From NCBI GenBank assembly GCA_013359255.1, contig JABWCF010000020.1, positions 1-43,577 on the forward strand: a DNA stretch of 43,577 bases. The letters run 5' to 3'. The translations under genes were made by a program, and so were the position numbers. Positions within the stretch are counted from its first letter, which is position 1, and every line of letters starts with the position of its first letter. Origin of the DNA: Flavobacteriales bacterium (lineage in GTDB: Bacteria; Bacteroidota; Bacteroidia; Flavobacteriales_E; Vicingaceae). Of this stretch, positions 13,402 through 38,943 are shown in pieces. The notes beneath the pieces are model-generated. The model was not told the DNA's origin, ran no database searches, and saw only the letters and a program-made list of their open reading frames with translations.

Positions 13402-16164
13402 CTATTTTCCTGCCACTAAATTCGCTTCGATGGCGAAGTTATCGTAAATAAAATTGTCGGCTAAAGCTCCAAATTTTTTCGATTTGTATTTAATATCAAA
13501 TAAAGTTCTATCTATCTCTAATTTGGCTATTGCTTTTACGTTATTTCCTTCGGTGGTAAGGATTAAATCAAAATCTATCGTTTTGGTAATCTCTTTAATG
13601 GTTAAATTGCCTTTGCAAGAATAGGTATTGTTTTCTTTTTTATCTGAGCTTAAAATAGAAAGAGAAGCCACAGGAAATTTTTCGGCAGAAAAAAAATCAT
13701 CAGAAGCCATATGTTCGATAAAGTCGGCATTATCTTTTGCGTCTGTAATATCGGTGCATACCATAGATTTCATATCTACCAAAACCTCTCCCGATACAAT
13801 CTGCCCATTGGCCACTTCAAAACCTCCTGAAGTTAATTTTACTGTACCTACATGTTCTCCTTTAAAACTTTTTCCCGACCAATTTAATGATGATGCTGAC
13901 GCATTGATAGAATACACACCATCGAATTCACTTTTTATTTCTTCTATTTTAGTTTCATTTAAAGGTATTTCGTTATTTTCTGAGGTATGCCCTCCTAAAA
14001 TGGGAGCTATAACAAGCCCAACCAAACAAGTGAGTTTAATTAAAATATTCATAGAAGGGCCCGAGGTATCTTTAAAGGGGTCTCCAACAGTATCACCCGT
14101 TACAGCTGCTTTGTGTGCATCGGAGCCTTTATAGGTCATTTGGCCATCAATCATTACACCGGCTTCGAAAGATTTTTTGGCATTATCCCAAGCACCCCCT
14201 GCATTATTTTGAAATATAGCCCACAACACACCTGAAACTGTAACTCCGGCCATGTATCCACCTAACATCTCGGCCGCTTGTGCACTTTCATAACCAAACA
14301 ACATGGGTAAAAATGCTATTAAAATTGGCATTGCTATGGTTAATACTCCCGGCAACATCATTTCGCGTAGGGCGGCTTTGGTAGAAATTTCTACACATTT
14401 TCCATATTCAGGCTTGCTGGTGCCTTCCATAATTCCGGGTATTTCTTTAAACTGTCTCCGTACTTCTTTTACCATATCCATTGCCGCTTTTCCTACAGAA
14501 TTCATAGCCAATGCAGAAAAAACCACAGGCACCATGCCCCCCACAAACAAACAAGCTAAAACAGGTGCTTTAAAAATATTGATGCCATCTATTCCCGTAA
14601 ATGTTACATACGCTGCAAATAAAGCCAATGCTGTAAGTGCTGCCGAGGCAATGGCAAAGCCTTTACCAATGGCCGCAGTAGTGTTTCCTACAGAGTCTAA
14701 AATATCAGTTTTTGTACGCACTTCTTTTGGAAGCTCACTCATTTCAGCTATTCCACCTGCGTTATCGGCAATAGGGCCAAAAGCATCAATGGCAAGCTGC
14801 ATAGCGGTAGTGGCCATCATTGCCGATGCTGCTATGGCAACACCATAAAAACCTGCAAAAGCATAAGCCCCCCAAATAGCCGAAGCAAATAATAAGATGG
14901 GATAAAAAGTAGAAATCATTCCGGTAGCTAAACCGGCAATAATATTGGTTCCTGCTCCGGTAGAAGATTTCTGAACGATTGCCAATACAGGCTTTTTGCC
15001 TAGTCCGGTATAGTATTCGGTAAAATAAGAAATAAAACCTCCTACTGTAAGACCTACTAATACTGCAAAAAATACTCTAAGCGATGAAACTTCTTTAATT
15101 CCTTCACCAAAGAAAGCCATATTTAATGTTTCGGGCAACATCCATTTTATTACAAAAAAGGAAGCGATAGCGGTTAATGCAATAGAAATCCAGTTTCCTC
15201 TGTTTAGGGCTGCCTGCACATTGTTTTCGCTTGGGTTTGAACCGGAAATTTTTACAAAAAAAGTACCCACAATAGAAAAAATGATTCCTAAGCCTGCAAT
15301 AAGTATTGGGAGTAAAATAGGTCCCATTCCGTTAAAATGATCGGTAAATTGCTCTCCGGCTGCATTGCTTAAATCTTTAATCAGGTAGTTGCCTAACACC
15401 ATTGAAGCTAATACGGTGGCCACATAAGATCCGAACAAATCGGCACCCATACCTGCTACATCACCTACGTTATCGCCAACATTATCGGCAATGGTAGCCG
15501 GATTTCTTGGATCATCTTCGGGTATTCCGGCTTCTACTTTTCCAACTAAATCAGCTCCTACATCGGCTGCTTTCGTGTAAATTCCACCCCCTACACGAGC
15601 AAAGAGTGCAATGGATTCTGCTCCCAGAGAAAAGCCGGCTAAGGCTTCGAGTACAATGGTCATTTCCGTATAAAAATCGGATTGGCCAACAATAAACCAC
15701 GAACTTAAAAAAGCAAACAATACACTCAAGCCAAAAACGGCTAAGCCTGCAACACCCAAACCCATTACCGTACCTCCTTTAAAAGATACATTCAATGCAT
15801 TTTGCAAACTAGTGCGTGCTGCTTGAGTGGTACGCACATTGGCCGCTGTAGCTATACGCATACCTATATTTCCTGCAATGGCGGAAAATACAGCACCTAT
15901 TATAAAAGCAATTACGATAAACCAATGTGTAGTAGGAACTATAGCCGAAACGATTCCCAACAATATTCCTGCAATGACAACAAAAATGGCCAATACACGG
16001 TATTCTGCTTTAAGAAAAGCCATTGCTCCTTCTCGGATATAAGTAGAAATCTGTTTCATTTTTTCGTTCCCAACATCTTGTTTGTTTACCCAAACAGAAA
16101 GAAAGAACATGTACACCAAGGCAAGTACTCCGAAAATAGGCAGCAGATAAATAAGATTTTCCAT
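13402..16164 (-). CDS. hppA: K+-dependent H+-pumping membrane pyrophosphatase fused to a YceI domain
   Basis: A 920-residue fusion. Residues 1 to about 726 are a complete membrane pyrophosphatase that couples PPi hydrolysis to ion pumping: [40 protein letters not shown], a second acidic cluster ([12 protein letters not shown]) and the C-terminal [16 protein letters not shown] are all present. [10 protein letters not shown] has Ala and Gly where K+-independent enzymes have Lys and Thr, so K+ dependence is predicted. Glu183 in GAESIALF sits where most relatives have Ser, while the usual helix-6 Glu is missing (LFGSYVAT). This is the Flavobacterium H+-pump pattern as I recall it. After an acidic linker (727-746) comes a YceI domain (FDGVYSIN..., [37 protein letters not shown]). 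The C-terminus of these pumps faces the periplasm, where YceI proteins act. One continuous frame without interruption. Confidence 0.93.
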
Positions 16165-16243: not shown

Positions 16244-17479
16244 CTAAAGACTGGTAAAATCCTTTTGGGTTTTAGAGTCAAGCGAATCGCGAAGGCCGTT
16301 GCCAATGAATATAAAGGCTAAAACAAGAATCATAATAGCCACACCTGGAATAATAGTCAAATATTCTGTGCCGCTTCCGGTAAAAATATATCCCCTATGT
16401 TCGCTTATTATTTTTCCCCATGTAGCTTGGGGTGGCGGTGCTCCTAGCCCTAAAAAGCTAAGTCCTGCTTCAATTAAAATGGCTGCTGCAAAATTGGCTG
16501 CCGAAATTACCACTACAGGCCCCATTACATTAGGGAGAATATGTCTGTAAATAATTCTGTAATTGGTAAAACCCAGGGCATGGCCTGCTTCTACAAATTC
16601 TTTTTCGCGAATACTAAGCACCTGCCCGCGTACTACACGGGCTACTTCTACCCACATGGTTAAACCTACTGCTACAAATACCTGCCAAAAATCTTTACCA
16701 ATAGCCAATGTAATGGCTATTATTAATAGAAGTGTGGGAATAGACCACACTACATTAATGAGCCACATAATTACATCATCTATCCAGCCTCTAAAATACC
16801 CTGCTAGTGCACCCATTAAAACGCCTATAATAATGGAAATGAATACGGAAATAAGTCCTACGGTTAAGGAAATCCAAGTTCCAGCCATAATACGACTTAA
16901 AAAATCTCTGCCATAGCGGTCTGTTCCTAAATAGTATTTTCTATTTTCAATATTATTTTCTATCACTTCGGTTTTTAGTGATTCTATTTCCAAGCTGTAT
17001 TGTTTGCCCTCTAAAGAATAAAAATTAATGGTGCTTCCTTCAATAAAGGCATGTTTGGTGGCATCAATAGGGTATGCCACATCGGCCAAATTAAAACGGA
17101 TTACTTCTCCGTTATTGGGCGTATCTCCGGTATATTTTTCTACTACAATATCGGTTCCCTCAAAATTGTAACTGTAAATAGGGTAGGTTCTGTATTCGCT
17201 TTCGATACCCCAAATTAATTGGTTAAACAAGGAGGTTTCTTTGCTTAAGCTGTTTTTTCTTATTTTCAGAATTTGCAGCGAAAATCCAGGTTGTTTCAGT
17301 GTAATTTCTAAGTTTTGATCGTTCGATTTTGGAGTAGAATCGGGCCTAATAAAGGGTCCTAACAGTGCCACTATAACGGTTAAAATAATTACAAGCAGCG
17401 AAAACATTGCCGGTTTGTTTCTTTTAAACCTTTGCCATGCCAATGCCCTTAATGAATATAGTTTATTTTTTTTAGCCAC
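16244..17479 (-). CDS. OppC/DppC-like ABC transporter permease with a large periplasmic insert
   Basis: Inner-membrane permease of 411 residues of the peptide ABC importer type. Helix 1 (about 24-44) is followed by GPFIRPD, then an insert of about 130 residues (50-180, mostly beta-like), then the standard LGTDRYGRDFLSRIMAGTWISL and four to five helices. The cytoplasmic EAA loop (EFVEAGHALGFTNYRIIYRHILPN) is intact and would bind the ATPase, and LSFLGLGAPPPQATWG is the usual C-terminal signature. Typical OppC proteins are about 300 residues, so the insert is the main oddity. No OppB, ATPase or binding protein is nearby. The start is GTG at 17479, nine nt after the glycosyltransferase stop. Confidence 0.92.
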   Translation of the reverse strand: MAKKNKLYSLRALAWQRFKRNKPAMFSLLVIILTVIVALLGPFIRPDSTPKSNDQNLEITLKQPGFSLQILKIRKNSLSKETSLFNQLIWGIESEYRTYPIYSYNFEGTDIVVEKYTGDTPNNGEVIRFNLADVAYPIDATKHAFIEGSTINFYSLEGKQYSLEIESLKTEVIENNIENRKYYLGTDRYGRDFLSRIMAGTWISLTVGLISVFISIIIGVLMGALAGYFRGWIDDVIMWLINVVWSIPTLLLIIAITLAIGKDFWQVFVAVGLTMWVEVARVVRGQVLSIREKEFVEAGHALGFTNYRIIYRHILPNVMGPVVVISAANFAAAILIEAGLSFLGLGAPPPQATWGKIISEHRGYIFTGSGTEYLTIIPGVAIMILVLAFIFIGNGLRDSLDSKTQKDFTSL

Positions 17480-19344: not shown

Positions 19345-20949
19345 TTAATTCTTAATCAATTTCTGTATTTGTTTTCGATTTTCATTTTGCAGCGTAAGGA
19401 AATACATTCCCTTACTGAAATGACTTATATCTATTACAATGTTTCTTTGGTTCGCCTCCGGAACATATTGTAAAACAACCTTGCCCGCATAATCTGTAAT
19501 TACCAACTGCATATTTTTATACTCTTCATTTATTTGAATCATTAATTGATGGTTTGCAGGATTAGGCTGAACGGTAAAAAATGTTTGTTTTTCAGTTTCG
19601 TTTATACCTCCACATACTTCAACCGTTACTGTAAAATCGCAGGTATCTTTATTACCACTAGCATCGGTTACCACAAAAACTAAGTTGTAGTTGCCTACAT
19701 CGAAGCTGCTGCCTAAGGTGGGGCCGTTTGTTTGGGTTACAGTAGCTCCGGGGCAGTTATCGCTGCCGATAATATTGGCATTGTACACTCCCCAACAAAT
19801 GGTAGTATCATTTGGGCAAATAATGGTTGGTGCTTCATTATCAACTACGGTTACGGTAAACGAACAGCTATCTGCATTACCTAAACCATCTTCTACTTTA
19901 AAACTATTGGTAGTAATTCCTACAGGAAAAGTGGCTCCATCGGGCAATCCTCCAGTTTGTGTGGTAATAGCAGTACCGCCTGTCCATGATAAAATTATTT
20001 GTCCGTTATTCGTTTTTGCCCCAGCTGTAAATGATGTGTTAGTTAGTGTTCCCGACCAAGAAGAGCCTCCTCCTCCACCTCCGCTTCCGCAGTTTCCAAC
20101 CGAAGAGCCTCCTCCGCCATAGTAACCGCCTCCACCACCAGATGTGCCTCCGTATGTATTGTAACAAATACCGTTTTCCCAAGTATCGCCATTTCCCCCT
20201 ACACCTAAAGTTCCAATTTGCCCACATGTACTGGTATAACAGGTATTACAAGAGCCATTACCTCCACTGTTAAGCCCTCCTCCTCCGGCACCACCGGAGT
20301 GGCAACTAGAATTTCCCGAACCTCCATTTAACCCTCCGGGTGTTCCGGCACCACCATATCCCCCGGCACCACCTCCTCCACAATAATTGGCACCACAAGA
20401 GCCTCCGCCTCCGTGCCCTCCCTGATGATTTCCTACATCTGTTTGTCCACCGCCACCACCTCCTCCGGCAACAATTACTCTGTTTGCTAACGCAGTGCCT
20501 CCCACTCTTACATCAGATGCCCCTCCTCCGTTTCTAAGCACAGCGGCATGACCCAAGCCACCACCATTGTATCCATTTTTGCCCCCTACATAAATATTTA
20601 ACACTTGTCCTGGTGTTACTGTTAAGTCTCCTTTCACATAGCCTCCTAACCCTCCGTTGCCGCCTTCTCCTTGTGCTCCCCATACTTCAGTGGTAATTTT
20701 TGTAACTCCTGCTGGTACTGTAAATGTTTGTGCTGAGCCTGTATAGCTAAATGTTTGCGTTCCTGAGCCACAAGGGTTAGAGCCTACTGGCGTAACATAA
20801 TTTACCACTGCACCGCATGTGCCAGGGGCGTTATTTGCCGTAATATTACTTGGGCAGGTTATTTGAGGGCATTGAGAAAACCCTATTTGCAATGCCAGTA
20901 ACCCGAATGCAAATAATACTGCTTTTTTAAAAATGTGTAGAGATTTCAT
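19345..20949 (-). CDS. T9SS-exported glycine-rich/HYR surface protein
   Basis: A 534-residue secreted protein: signal peptide 1-25 (KAVLFAFGLLALQIGFSQ), then the first half of an HYR domain (27-61, CPSNIT...CGAVVNY), then a Gly-rich domain (62-326) opening QTFTVPAGVTKITTEVWGAQG with many GGGGG runs and about eight Cys. The second half of the same HYR domain follows (329-372, QTGGLPDGATFPVG...CSFTVTVVDNEAP), then a complete HYR domain (374-445) and a T9SS type A sorting domain (455-534, VQPNPANHQL... FSKGMYFLTLQ...KLIKN). It is expected to be exported by the T9SS and attached to the surface or released. The Gly-rich part resembles the domain of ALK/LTK receptors and some adhesins. The gene lies 30 nt downstream of the GDSL lipoprotein gene, and its paralogue is at 1-965. 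Confidence 0.92.
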   Translation of the reverse strand: MKSLHIFKKAVLFAFGLLALQIGFSQCPQITCPSNITANNAPGTCGAVVNYVTPVGSNPCGSGTQTFSYTGSAQTFTVPAGVTKITTEVWGAQGEGGNGGLGGYVKGDLTVTPGQVLNIYVGGKNGYNGGGLGHAAVLRNGGGASDVRVGGTALANRVIVAGGGGGGGQTDVGNHQGGHGGGGSCGANYCGGGGAGGYGGAGTPGGLNGGSGNSSCHSGGAGGGGLNSGGNGSCNTCYTSTCGQIGTLGVGGNGDTWENGICYNTYGGTSGGGGGYYGGGGSSVGNCGSGGGGGGSSWSGTLTNTSFTAGAKTNNGQIILSWTGGTAITTQTGGLPDGATFPVGITTNSFKVEDGLGNADSCSFTVTVVDNEAPTIICPNDTTICWGVYNANIIGSDNCPGATVTQTNGPTLGSSFDVGNYNLVFVVTDASGNKDTCDFTVTVEVCGGINETEKQTFFTVQPNPANHQLMIQINEEYKNMQLVITDYAGKVVLQYVPEANQRNIVIDISHFSKGMYFLTLQNENRKQIQKLIKN

Positions 20950-37965: not shown

Positions 37966-38943
37966 ATGAGAGAAATTCAATTCCGAGAAGCCCTTGGAGA
38001 AGCTATGAGCGAAGAAATGAGAAGAAACGAAAATGTTTTTTTGATGGGCGAAGAAGTGGCCGAATACAACGGAGCATATAAGGTAAGCAAAGGAATGTTA
38101 GACGAATTTGGCCCTAAAAGGGTTATTGATACTCCTATTGCCGAATTGGGGTTTTCGGGTATTGGCGTAGGAGCTGCCATGAAAGGGTTGCGACCTATTA
38201 TAGAATTTATGACGTTCAATTTTTCTTTGGTTGCTATAGACCAAATTATAAACAATGCCGCCAAAATGCGAAACATGTCGGGCGGACAACTTTCGGTGCC
38301 CATTGTGTTCAGAGGACCCACAGGCTCTGCAGGGCAATTGGCTGCTACTCACTCGCAAGCATTTGAAAGCTGGTTTGCCAACTGCCCCGGACTGAAAGTA
38401 ATTGTGCCCTCGAACCCTGCCGATGCCAAAGGGCTTCTAAAATCGGCCATACGAGATAACGACCCTGTTATTTTTATGGAATCAGAACAAATGTATGGCG
38501 ATAAAGGCTTGGTACCCGAAGGCGAATATCTTATTCCCATTGGGGTAGCCGATATAAAACGCGAAGGTAGTGATGTAACCATTGTGTCGTTCGGAAAAAT
38601 TATTAAACTGGCATATACAGTGGCCGATGAACTGCAAAAAGAAAATATAAGCTGCGAAATTATTGATTTACGTACCGTTCGCCCTATAGATTACAAAACG
38701 GTAATAGATTCGGTAAAAAAAACCAACCGCCTTGTTATTTTAGAAGAAGCATGGCCACTAGGGAGCATTGCCTCTGAAATTACCTACATGGTTCAGAAAG
38801 AAGCCTTCGATTATTTAGATGCCCCCATACGAAGAGTTACTACTGCCGATGTGCCTATGAGCTACGCACCCACCTTAGTAGAAGCCTTTTTGCCAAGTAA
38901 AGAAAACTTAACGGCCGCAATCAAAGCGGTGCTGTACAAATAA
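37966..38943 (+). CDS. pdhB: Pyruvate dehydrogenase E1 component, beta subunit
   Basis: A 325-residue transketolase-like subunit that, with the alpha subunit, oxidatively decarboxylates pyruvate using thiamine diphosphate. Visible are MREIQFREALGEAMSEEMRRN, VFLMGEEVAEYNGAYKVSKGML, DTPIAELGFSGIGVGAAMKGLRPI, and the C-terminal fold ending DVPMSYAPTLVEAFLPSKENL. The sequence GGQLSVPIVFRGPTG is that of the pyruvate type, not the branched-chain one, though the substrate is inferred. The alpha subunit and E2/E3 genes are not here, so it is separated from its partners, as in several Bacteroidota. It is convergent with the amidohydrolase gene after eight bases. Confidence 0.94.
   Translation: MREIQFREALGEAMSEEMRRNENVFLMGEEVAEYNGAYKVSKGMLDEFGPKRVIDTPIAELGFSGIGVGAAMKGLRPIIEFMTFNFSLVAIDQIINNAAKMRNMSGGQLSVPIVFRGPTGSAGQLAATHSQAFESWFANCPGLKVIVPSNPADAKGLLKSAIRDNDPVIFMESEQMYGDKGLVPEGEYLIPIGVADIKREGSDVTIVSFGKIIKLAYTVADELQKENISCEIIDLRTVRPIDYKTVIDSVKKTNRLVILEEAWPLGSIASEITYMVQKEAFDYLDAPIRRVTTADVPMSYAPTLVEAFLPSKENLTAAIKAVLYK

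Follow-up and report, generated by a model that had tools for sequence, protein, structure and literature searches.

YceI proteins are periplasmic or secreted, and the ligands of the free proteins are isoprenoids, namely octaprenyl phosphate, octaprenylphenol and ubiquinone-8 (PMC9113575). In most alphaproteobacteria YceI is fused to cytochrome b561, forming the LcoA-BcnA chimeras (PMC9113575). The membrane pyrophosphatases (m-PPases) have been described with a hydrolytic centre on the cytoplasmic side (PMC5150537) and a gate lysine, K16.50 (PMC10897367, PMC5150537), and the K+-dependent H+-PPase of Flavobacterium johnsoniae carries a semi-conserved glutamate at position 5.43 (PMC6882861, PMC10897367). 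Additional domains on these pumps have been noted in Paucibacter and other Burkholderiales, whose m-PPases carry a C-terminal OmpA-like domain with its role left open (PMC11210485).

Here a stretch of 43,577 nucleotides from Flavobacteriales bacterium (contig JABWCF010000020.1; the window) was analysed, in which an m-PPase and a YceI domain share one gene.

One reading frame for a pump and a YceI domain

The fused gene and its parts are located as follows.

13402..16164, minus strand: whole pump-YceI gene, a single ORF of 920 aa plus stop with an ATG start
13984..16164, minus strand: membrane pyrophosphatase part, residues 1-727, with the last helix at its end (PF03030 and PDB relatives)
15616..15618, minus strand: codon of Glu183, position 5.43 by alignment (from the motif; numbering inferred)
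13915..13983, minus strand: acidic linker, residues 728-750, fast-evolving (linker dN/dS)
13405..13914, minus strand: YceI domain of type A, residues 751-920 (PF04264 and YceI tree)

The sequence-only reading had described an m-PPase running without a stop through an acidic linker into a complete YceI domain, and the Pfam searches bore out each of these parts. PF03030 (H_PPase) matched residues 13-719 over the whole profile (1-645 of 645, E 2.6e-263, 875.9 bits against a cut-off of 29.7), and PF04264 (YceI) matched residues 751-918, also over the whole profile (1-150 of 150, E 1.3e-20, 74.7 bits against a cut-off of 23.7). The acidic linker of 23 residues joins the last helix, which ends at about residue 727, to YceI, and the tail added to the pump amounts to 193 aa including the YceI domain. 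The frame is open at the pump/tail junction (about 13983/13984) with no stop there. The same 920-aa reading was obtained in genome G005, a sister species in the window's genus, with 98% identity. A further locus of this genus, L185 (Flavobacteriales bacterium, contig CAJPFH010000107.1), which possibly belongs to the same genome as G005, shares the 920-aa fusion.

The source genome (2.9 Mb, 34 contigs) has one H_PPase match, the fused gene, and four YceI matches, three of them in short separate frames. PF00719, the sole soluble pyrophosphatase family searched, gave one match; besides the pump, this genome therefore probably encodes another enzyme able to remove PPi.

Pump class and transported ion

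The pump part matched solved m-PPases over query residues 79-726 (4a01/6aft, which we take to be the Vigna radiata enzyme) and 4-721 (4av3, presumably that of Thermotoga maritima). The PPi-binding motifs and SMNILIKL are present and align to a solved enzyme, with the active-site loops intact. We take the lysine of SMNILIK to be K16.50, and roles were assigned to the other PPi-binding motifs on the same kind of assumption.

The ion-site residues were compared by alignment, from which the position numbers are inferred. Helix 5 reads GAES, with Glu183 at 5.43, and helix 6 reads FGSYVA(T), with G at 6.53, A at 6.57 and no Glu at either. S5.43 pumps such as L066 read FESYVG, that is, they have a helix-6 Glu where the window pump has G. 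The window pump also has the motif GNTTAA, without the Lys of GNTTKA pumps such as L070. The NCBIfam model NF001955, named 'sodium-translocating', scored 1218 bits against a cut-off of 1059, yet the Na+-site Glu at 6.53 is absent; judged by these residues, the name of the model tracks the family and not the ion site. Because Glu at 5.43 is combined with a helix 6 lacking Glu, the sodium label is probably wrong for the ion, and the window pump probably transports H+. The pump would also be K+-dependent. The first identification as an m-PPase agrees with PF03030 and is now narrowed to a probable H+ pump. With the F. johnsoniae-type H+-PPase the window pump shares the full H_PPase profile, E5.43 by alignment and GNTTAA; unlike that pump, it bears the 193-aa tail with YceI (the F. 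johnsoniae sequence itself lies outside our alignment).

An association between E5.43 and the presence of a tail was considered and set aside. Tails shorter than 40 aa were found in 0 of 92 E5.43 pumps and in 18 of 29 S5.43 pumps, a comparison drawn from a set biased to long frames and confounded by lineage, beside which stand 15 further pumps without a readable 5.43 motif.

Distribution of the fusion

Single chains with both domains, which the sequence-only reading had proposed to map by taxonomy, were found in 38 of the 46 genomes that represent the window's family (Vicingaceae; 16 genera). Whole proteins account for 35 of them, and the other three lie on contigs that cut the pump front (G018, G019, G025). 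In three of the 46 genomes the pump ends in a short, YceI-free tail (G006, G021, G037), in two the contig ends ahead of the pump C-terminus (G023, G028), and in three the pump was not found (G010, G015, G016). Among the 38 family tails, 26 are of type A, assigned by reading, and 12 are of YceI type B.

A profile, A1, was made from 23 tails, all from the window's family and all matching PF04264 (23/23). Searching 395 genomes of the class with A1 gave at least 33 intact fused frames and one with a broken pump frame (G582). Of the intact ones, 15 belong to the window's family and 18 are spread over eleven further families, so that the class has at least 12 families with the fusion. In each of the 18 a single frame of 897-950 aa spans pump and tail; their tails are identified as YceI by A1 and a second profile, not by Pfam, and the counts beyond the window's family are lower bounds.

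Among 80 named loci examined, the pump was seen in the same frame in 15, and a pump frame was not seen in the remaining 65. Acidiluteibacter ferrifornacis strain S-15 (L226; Cryomorphaceae in NCBI taxonomy) has both domains by Pfam. Further fused named loci come from records titled Vicingaceae, Flavobacteriales or Bacteroidia, and one Verrucomicrobia (L195). The tail of L195 looks identical to that of family member G036 over the part compared, and the Verrucomicrobia title is probably wrong. In genome G582 (L141/L156) the pump frame is disrupted by apparent frameshifts ahead of an intact YceI tail, probably through assembly error.

That sequencing or assembly joined two separate genes artificially has a negligible probability. 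Nothing in the window speaks for such an artefact, the nearest case elsewhere being the one genome with a frameshift-broken pump, and it is refuted by independent genomes, since the sister species, named records such as that of A. ferrifornacis strain S-15, and many families share the architecture. The fusion is genuine and conserved.

Exchange of the tail on related pumps

The YceI tree separates the fused domains, with 100/99 support, into subfamilies A and B, which stand apart from most free YceI copies sampled. The tails of L159-L163 are of type B, and the free YceI of L340 was placed with solo B. Tests of one lineage for all fused A (p-AU 0.231) and for all fused B (p-AU 0.106) neither rejected nor established it, as p-AU above 0.05 does not demonstrate a clade. 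The pump tree (77 rows) requires at least 22 changes of tail label, or at least 8 if the count is confined to the 32 rows from the window's family. That one tail arose once and was then inherited vertically was rejected, B-tailed pumps as one clade giving a p-AU of 1e-53, a value from a quick pump tree with the group picked after viewing the tree.

Pairs of close pumps showed the same pattern directly. Two pumps 95.4% identical carry A and B tails that are only 17-18% identical; for near-identical (95%) pumps overall, the tails are 17-23% identical and come from the two YceI subfamilies. Two pumps 92.7% identical differ in that one bears an A tail and the other lacks YceI, and within one family pumps 91-95% identical bear YceI A, YceI B or no YceI. 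In two other families (f82 and f80) pumps 91.4% identical have A and B tails, so the pumps too may move between lineages.

The edges of the exchanged segment were examined in the DNA. Homology ended shortly beyond the last helix, 62-133 bases past the GP codons, in 5/5 pairs (BLAST), and sliding identity fell from 77-91% to 25-33% at this point in 4/4 pairs. Downstream homology was long (>1 kb) in two of five pairs and weak or short in three. G022 (A) and G024 (B) are 82% identical over 3.4 kb, covering the upstream gene and the pump, and again 77% over 1.15 kb downstream, restarting within 40 bases of the frame ends. G026 (A) and G021 (no YceI) are 81% identical over 3.4 kb, and their downstream homology is regained 135 and 62 bases past the frame ends and a further time with 75% over 1.4 kb. 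The downstream match was 289 bases at 85% for G026 (A) and G024 (B), about 150 and about 350 bases at 69-71% for G045 (A) and G014 (B), and only 46 bases for G044 (A) and G008 (B), where the neighbouring genes differ. The weak or short homology in these three pairs fits exchange less well. Tail exchange by recombination across conserved flanks is still the simplest reading of the edges, the alternative being that tails were captured repeatedly from free genes. The tail is modular and largely independent of the pump.

Three further histories were tried. We do not claim that the tail in the window arose separately by recombination: it groups with those of the other pump clade of the family (98/85), and grouping with its own clade was not rejected (p-AU 0.483). 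For a tandem A+B ancestor with differential loss, a chain with both YceI types was sought and not seen among the tails read, which is not proof. For reversal of the fusion, leaving a free YceI beside a YceI-less pump, a YceI ORF was absent next to the pump in L016 and L164.

Domains other than YceI were found on related pumps. OmpA tails occur in f4 (L076, L079, L082-L084, L087, L094), f11 (L104, L109, L285) and f45 (L097), at the same C-terminal place as YceI, and PF00691 matched all four tails tested (L076, L104, L109, L097). In L097, whose frame is about 970 aa long, BON precedes OmpA. The pumps read from f5, presumably Flavobacteriaceae, have tails of 87-145 aa, most with an EGTEAEV-like motif. 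Seven tails of the f5 genus g21 (L268-L271, L274-L276) contain Cys-rich stretches, for example KCGDMSGMTKEECIKMCKEKGC in L274, which look metal-binding and are followed by an EGTxxEV motif in 6/7. Tails of about 125 aa in f3 (L095, L096, L101) share the motif GKLxINGKEQxA, and the two tested (L095, L101) gave no Pfam match over cut-off. Outside the class, the pumps read mostly end 20-28 residues past the loop.

The sequence-only reading had raised a special link between PPi, ion pumping and lipid binding. This part was not supported, because near-identical pumps (91-95%) have A, B or no YceI and pumps elsewhere carry OmpA or small domains; as tails vary in this way on 91-95% identical pumps and across families, no single tail seems needed for pumping. 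A direct coupling, by which the loading of lipid into the YceI barrel would be driven or sensed through PPi hydrolysis or ion flow, is improbable. Retention of the fusion in 38/46 family genomes and the binding of isoprenoids by YceI (PMC9113575) are in its favour, and it is opposed by the swapping or loss of tails while the pump stays 91-95% unchanged, as well as by the linker rates given below.

Selection on the parts

Between the window and G005, dN/dS was 0.023 for the pump, 0.26 for the linker (only 24 codons) and 0.079 for YceI. Across 10 pairs the pump values were 0-0.07 and the linker values 0.05-2.6, the latter on 18-24 codons, while YceI gave 0.04-0.19 in the eight pairs with unsaturated dS (dS was saturated in two). 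The low YceI values indicate that the fused frame is maintained by purifying selection. The fused YceI cores also retain family residues (HL..DFF, DRT in type A). The fast linker argues against a rigid contact of the kind that direct coupling of pump and barrel would involve.

These values also bear on the view that fusions arise readily at an open end and persist near-neutrally, without benefit. The variety of tails, with some of them lost at the least, is in line with such passengers; YceI dN/dS of 0.04-0.19 (8/10 pairs) together with retention in 38/46 genomes is not neutral, and we regard this view as very improbable.

Another view gives the tail a mechanical or placing role: YceI, OmpA and the small domains would all keep the pump at one envelope site or stabilise its dimer, with lipid binding by YceI incidental. 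The substitution of YceI A, YceI B and YceI-less tails on near-identical pumps is consistent with it, as is OmpA at the identical place in f4, f11 and f45. On the other hand, the retained YceI core residues and the purifying selection exceed the needs of a bare spacer. We consider this view possible but rather unlikely.

Genome neighbourhood

Two neighbours of the fused gene are referred to here.

16244..17479, minus strand: OppC-like ABC transporter permease, upstream neighbour in the same direction
37966..38943, plus strand: transketolase-type, PdhB-like gene, by reading the sequence, about 22 kb from the pump

A PdhB-like transketolase-type gene lies directly upstream of the pump in 7/8 loci (G044, G008, G022, G024, G021, G014, L226), the assignment being by reading, with Pfam on the L226 copy only. 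These seven loci have tails A, B or none. In L185, from the window's genus, no PdhB-like gene lies directly upstream of the pump, and in the window the next gene after the PdhB-like one lies on the other strand and looks like an amidohydrolase. The pump was apparently relocated in the window's genus, a direction of movement that we infer.

At 19345-20949 the window also encodes a protein that is rich in glycine, looks secreted and ends in what resembles a sorting domain of T9SS type. A scan for promoters and terminators, on which no claim here rests, gave 4 promoter-like sites where shuffling gave 10.1 on average, and 5 terminator-like sites against 3.6.

Position of the YceI domain and comparison with known systems

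The C-terminal order in the pump is active-site loop, one helix, tail, and the loop before the last helix is presumably part of the hydrolytic centre. With that centre on the cytoplasmic side, one helix after the loop would bring the tail outside. Given this order, and the OmpA domains that relatives carry there, the periplasmic display of YceI suggested by the sequence-only reading is probably right.

Searched alone, the window YceI matched solved YceI structures weakly (5ixg, E 2.5e-5; 1wub, 3.7e-5), and profiles of its relatives matched them strongly (1wub, 1.3e-22; 5ixh, 1.5e-13). With the free YceI or polyisoprenoid-binding proteins (1wub, 1y0g, 5ixh, 3hpe) the fused domain shares the full PF04264 profile and an HL..DFF-like motif; unlike them, it has no signal peptide of its own. 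By analogy with the free proteins, the fused YceI would bind lipid. Members of the window's phylum (Bacteroidota) use menaquinone, so menaquinone or a polyprenyl phosphate is a natural guess for the ligand.

The LcoA-BcnA chimeras likewise have YceI on a linker at the C-terminus of an inner-membrane protein, replacing the signal peptide (PMC9113575). Their partner is a cytochrome with an obvious quinone link, whereas in the window the partner is an ion pump. The fused pump-YceI may work like LcoA-BcnA and is not a member of that system. The OmpA-tailed m-PPases share an additional C-terminal envelope domain after the last helix; they carry another domain in another phylum, and the excerpt of PMC11210485 does not describe tail exchange.

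The combination of m-PPase and YceI is probably already present in automatic domain-architecture pages. Among the matches listed in our literature search, which covered neither subscription papers nor protein databases, no paper joining m-PPase and YceI was found. The supposed novelty therefore holds in part: no report of a YceI fusion was met in the literature searched, but the fusion is common in the class and OmpA-tailed m-PPases had been noted (PMC11210485). As far as searched, the fusion is an unreported, widespread variant of a known pump.

Discussion

We favour, with somewhat more than even confidence, the explanation that the window encodes a probably H+-pumping, K+-dependent m-PPase with a periplasmic YceI lipocalin tethered at its C-terminus, the tail being exchangeable and a prenyl lipid the most likely ligand. 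The last transmembrane helix would stand in for the signal peptide of a free YceI, and the loose acidic linker would let the barrel sit beside the membrane, two per pump dimer. YceI would use the pump as a membrane anchor, like YceI on cytochrome b561 in alphaproteobacteria, and its most likely ligand there, on the outer side of the inner membrane, would be a prenyl lipid such as menaquinone, polyprenyl phosphate or a similar molecule. The pump C-terminus may act as a socket, in which Bacteroidia relatives swap YceI A, YceI B, OmpA, small domains or no domain as a cassette. That the tail is exchangeable argues for a function local to the pump and separate from catalysis, and YceI is most likely a tethered periplasmic lipocalin outside pump catalysis.

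Some observations weigh against this explanation. Three of the 46 family genomes have the pump without YceI and thus dispense with the tail. The OmpA family is peptidoglycan-binding, and the OmpA tails point to envelope anchoring, not lipid binding, as the common role. Moreover, as free YceI is encoded in the same genome, the tether must do what the free copies do not.

More speculatively, the m-PPase C-terminus of Bacteroidia could be a general periplasmic docking port on which modules (two YceI, OmpA, small and Cys-rich) are recombined as cassettes, and its YceI form an ion pump-lipocalin machine, with pumping or local acidification controlling the loading or release of a prenyl lipid such as menaquinone or a cell-wall carrier; we give this proposal a low probability.

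In the literature covered, m-PPases are mainly treated as bare pumps, and 38/46 genomes of this family add YceI to them. The annotation 'sodium-translocating pyrophosphatase' can conceal pumps of the H+ type that bear additional domains. The near-identical pumps ending in tail A, in tail B or without YceI give a starting point for the function of YceI proteins, as yet unsettled, and amount to a natural swap experiment on the purpose of tethering a domain to an ion pump.
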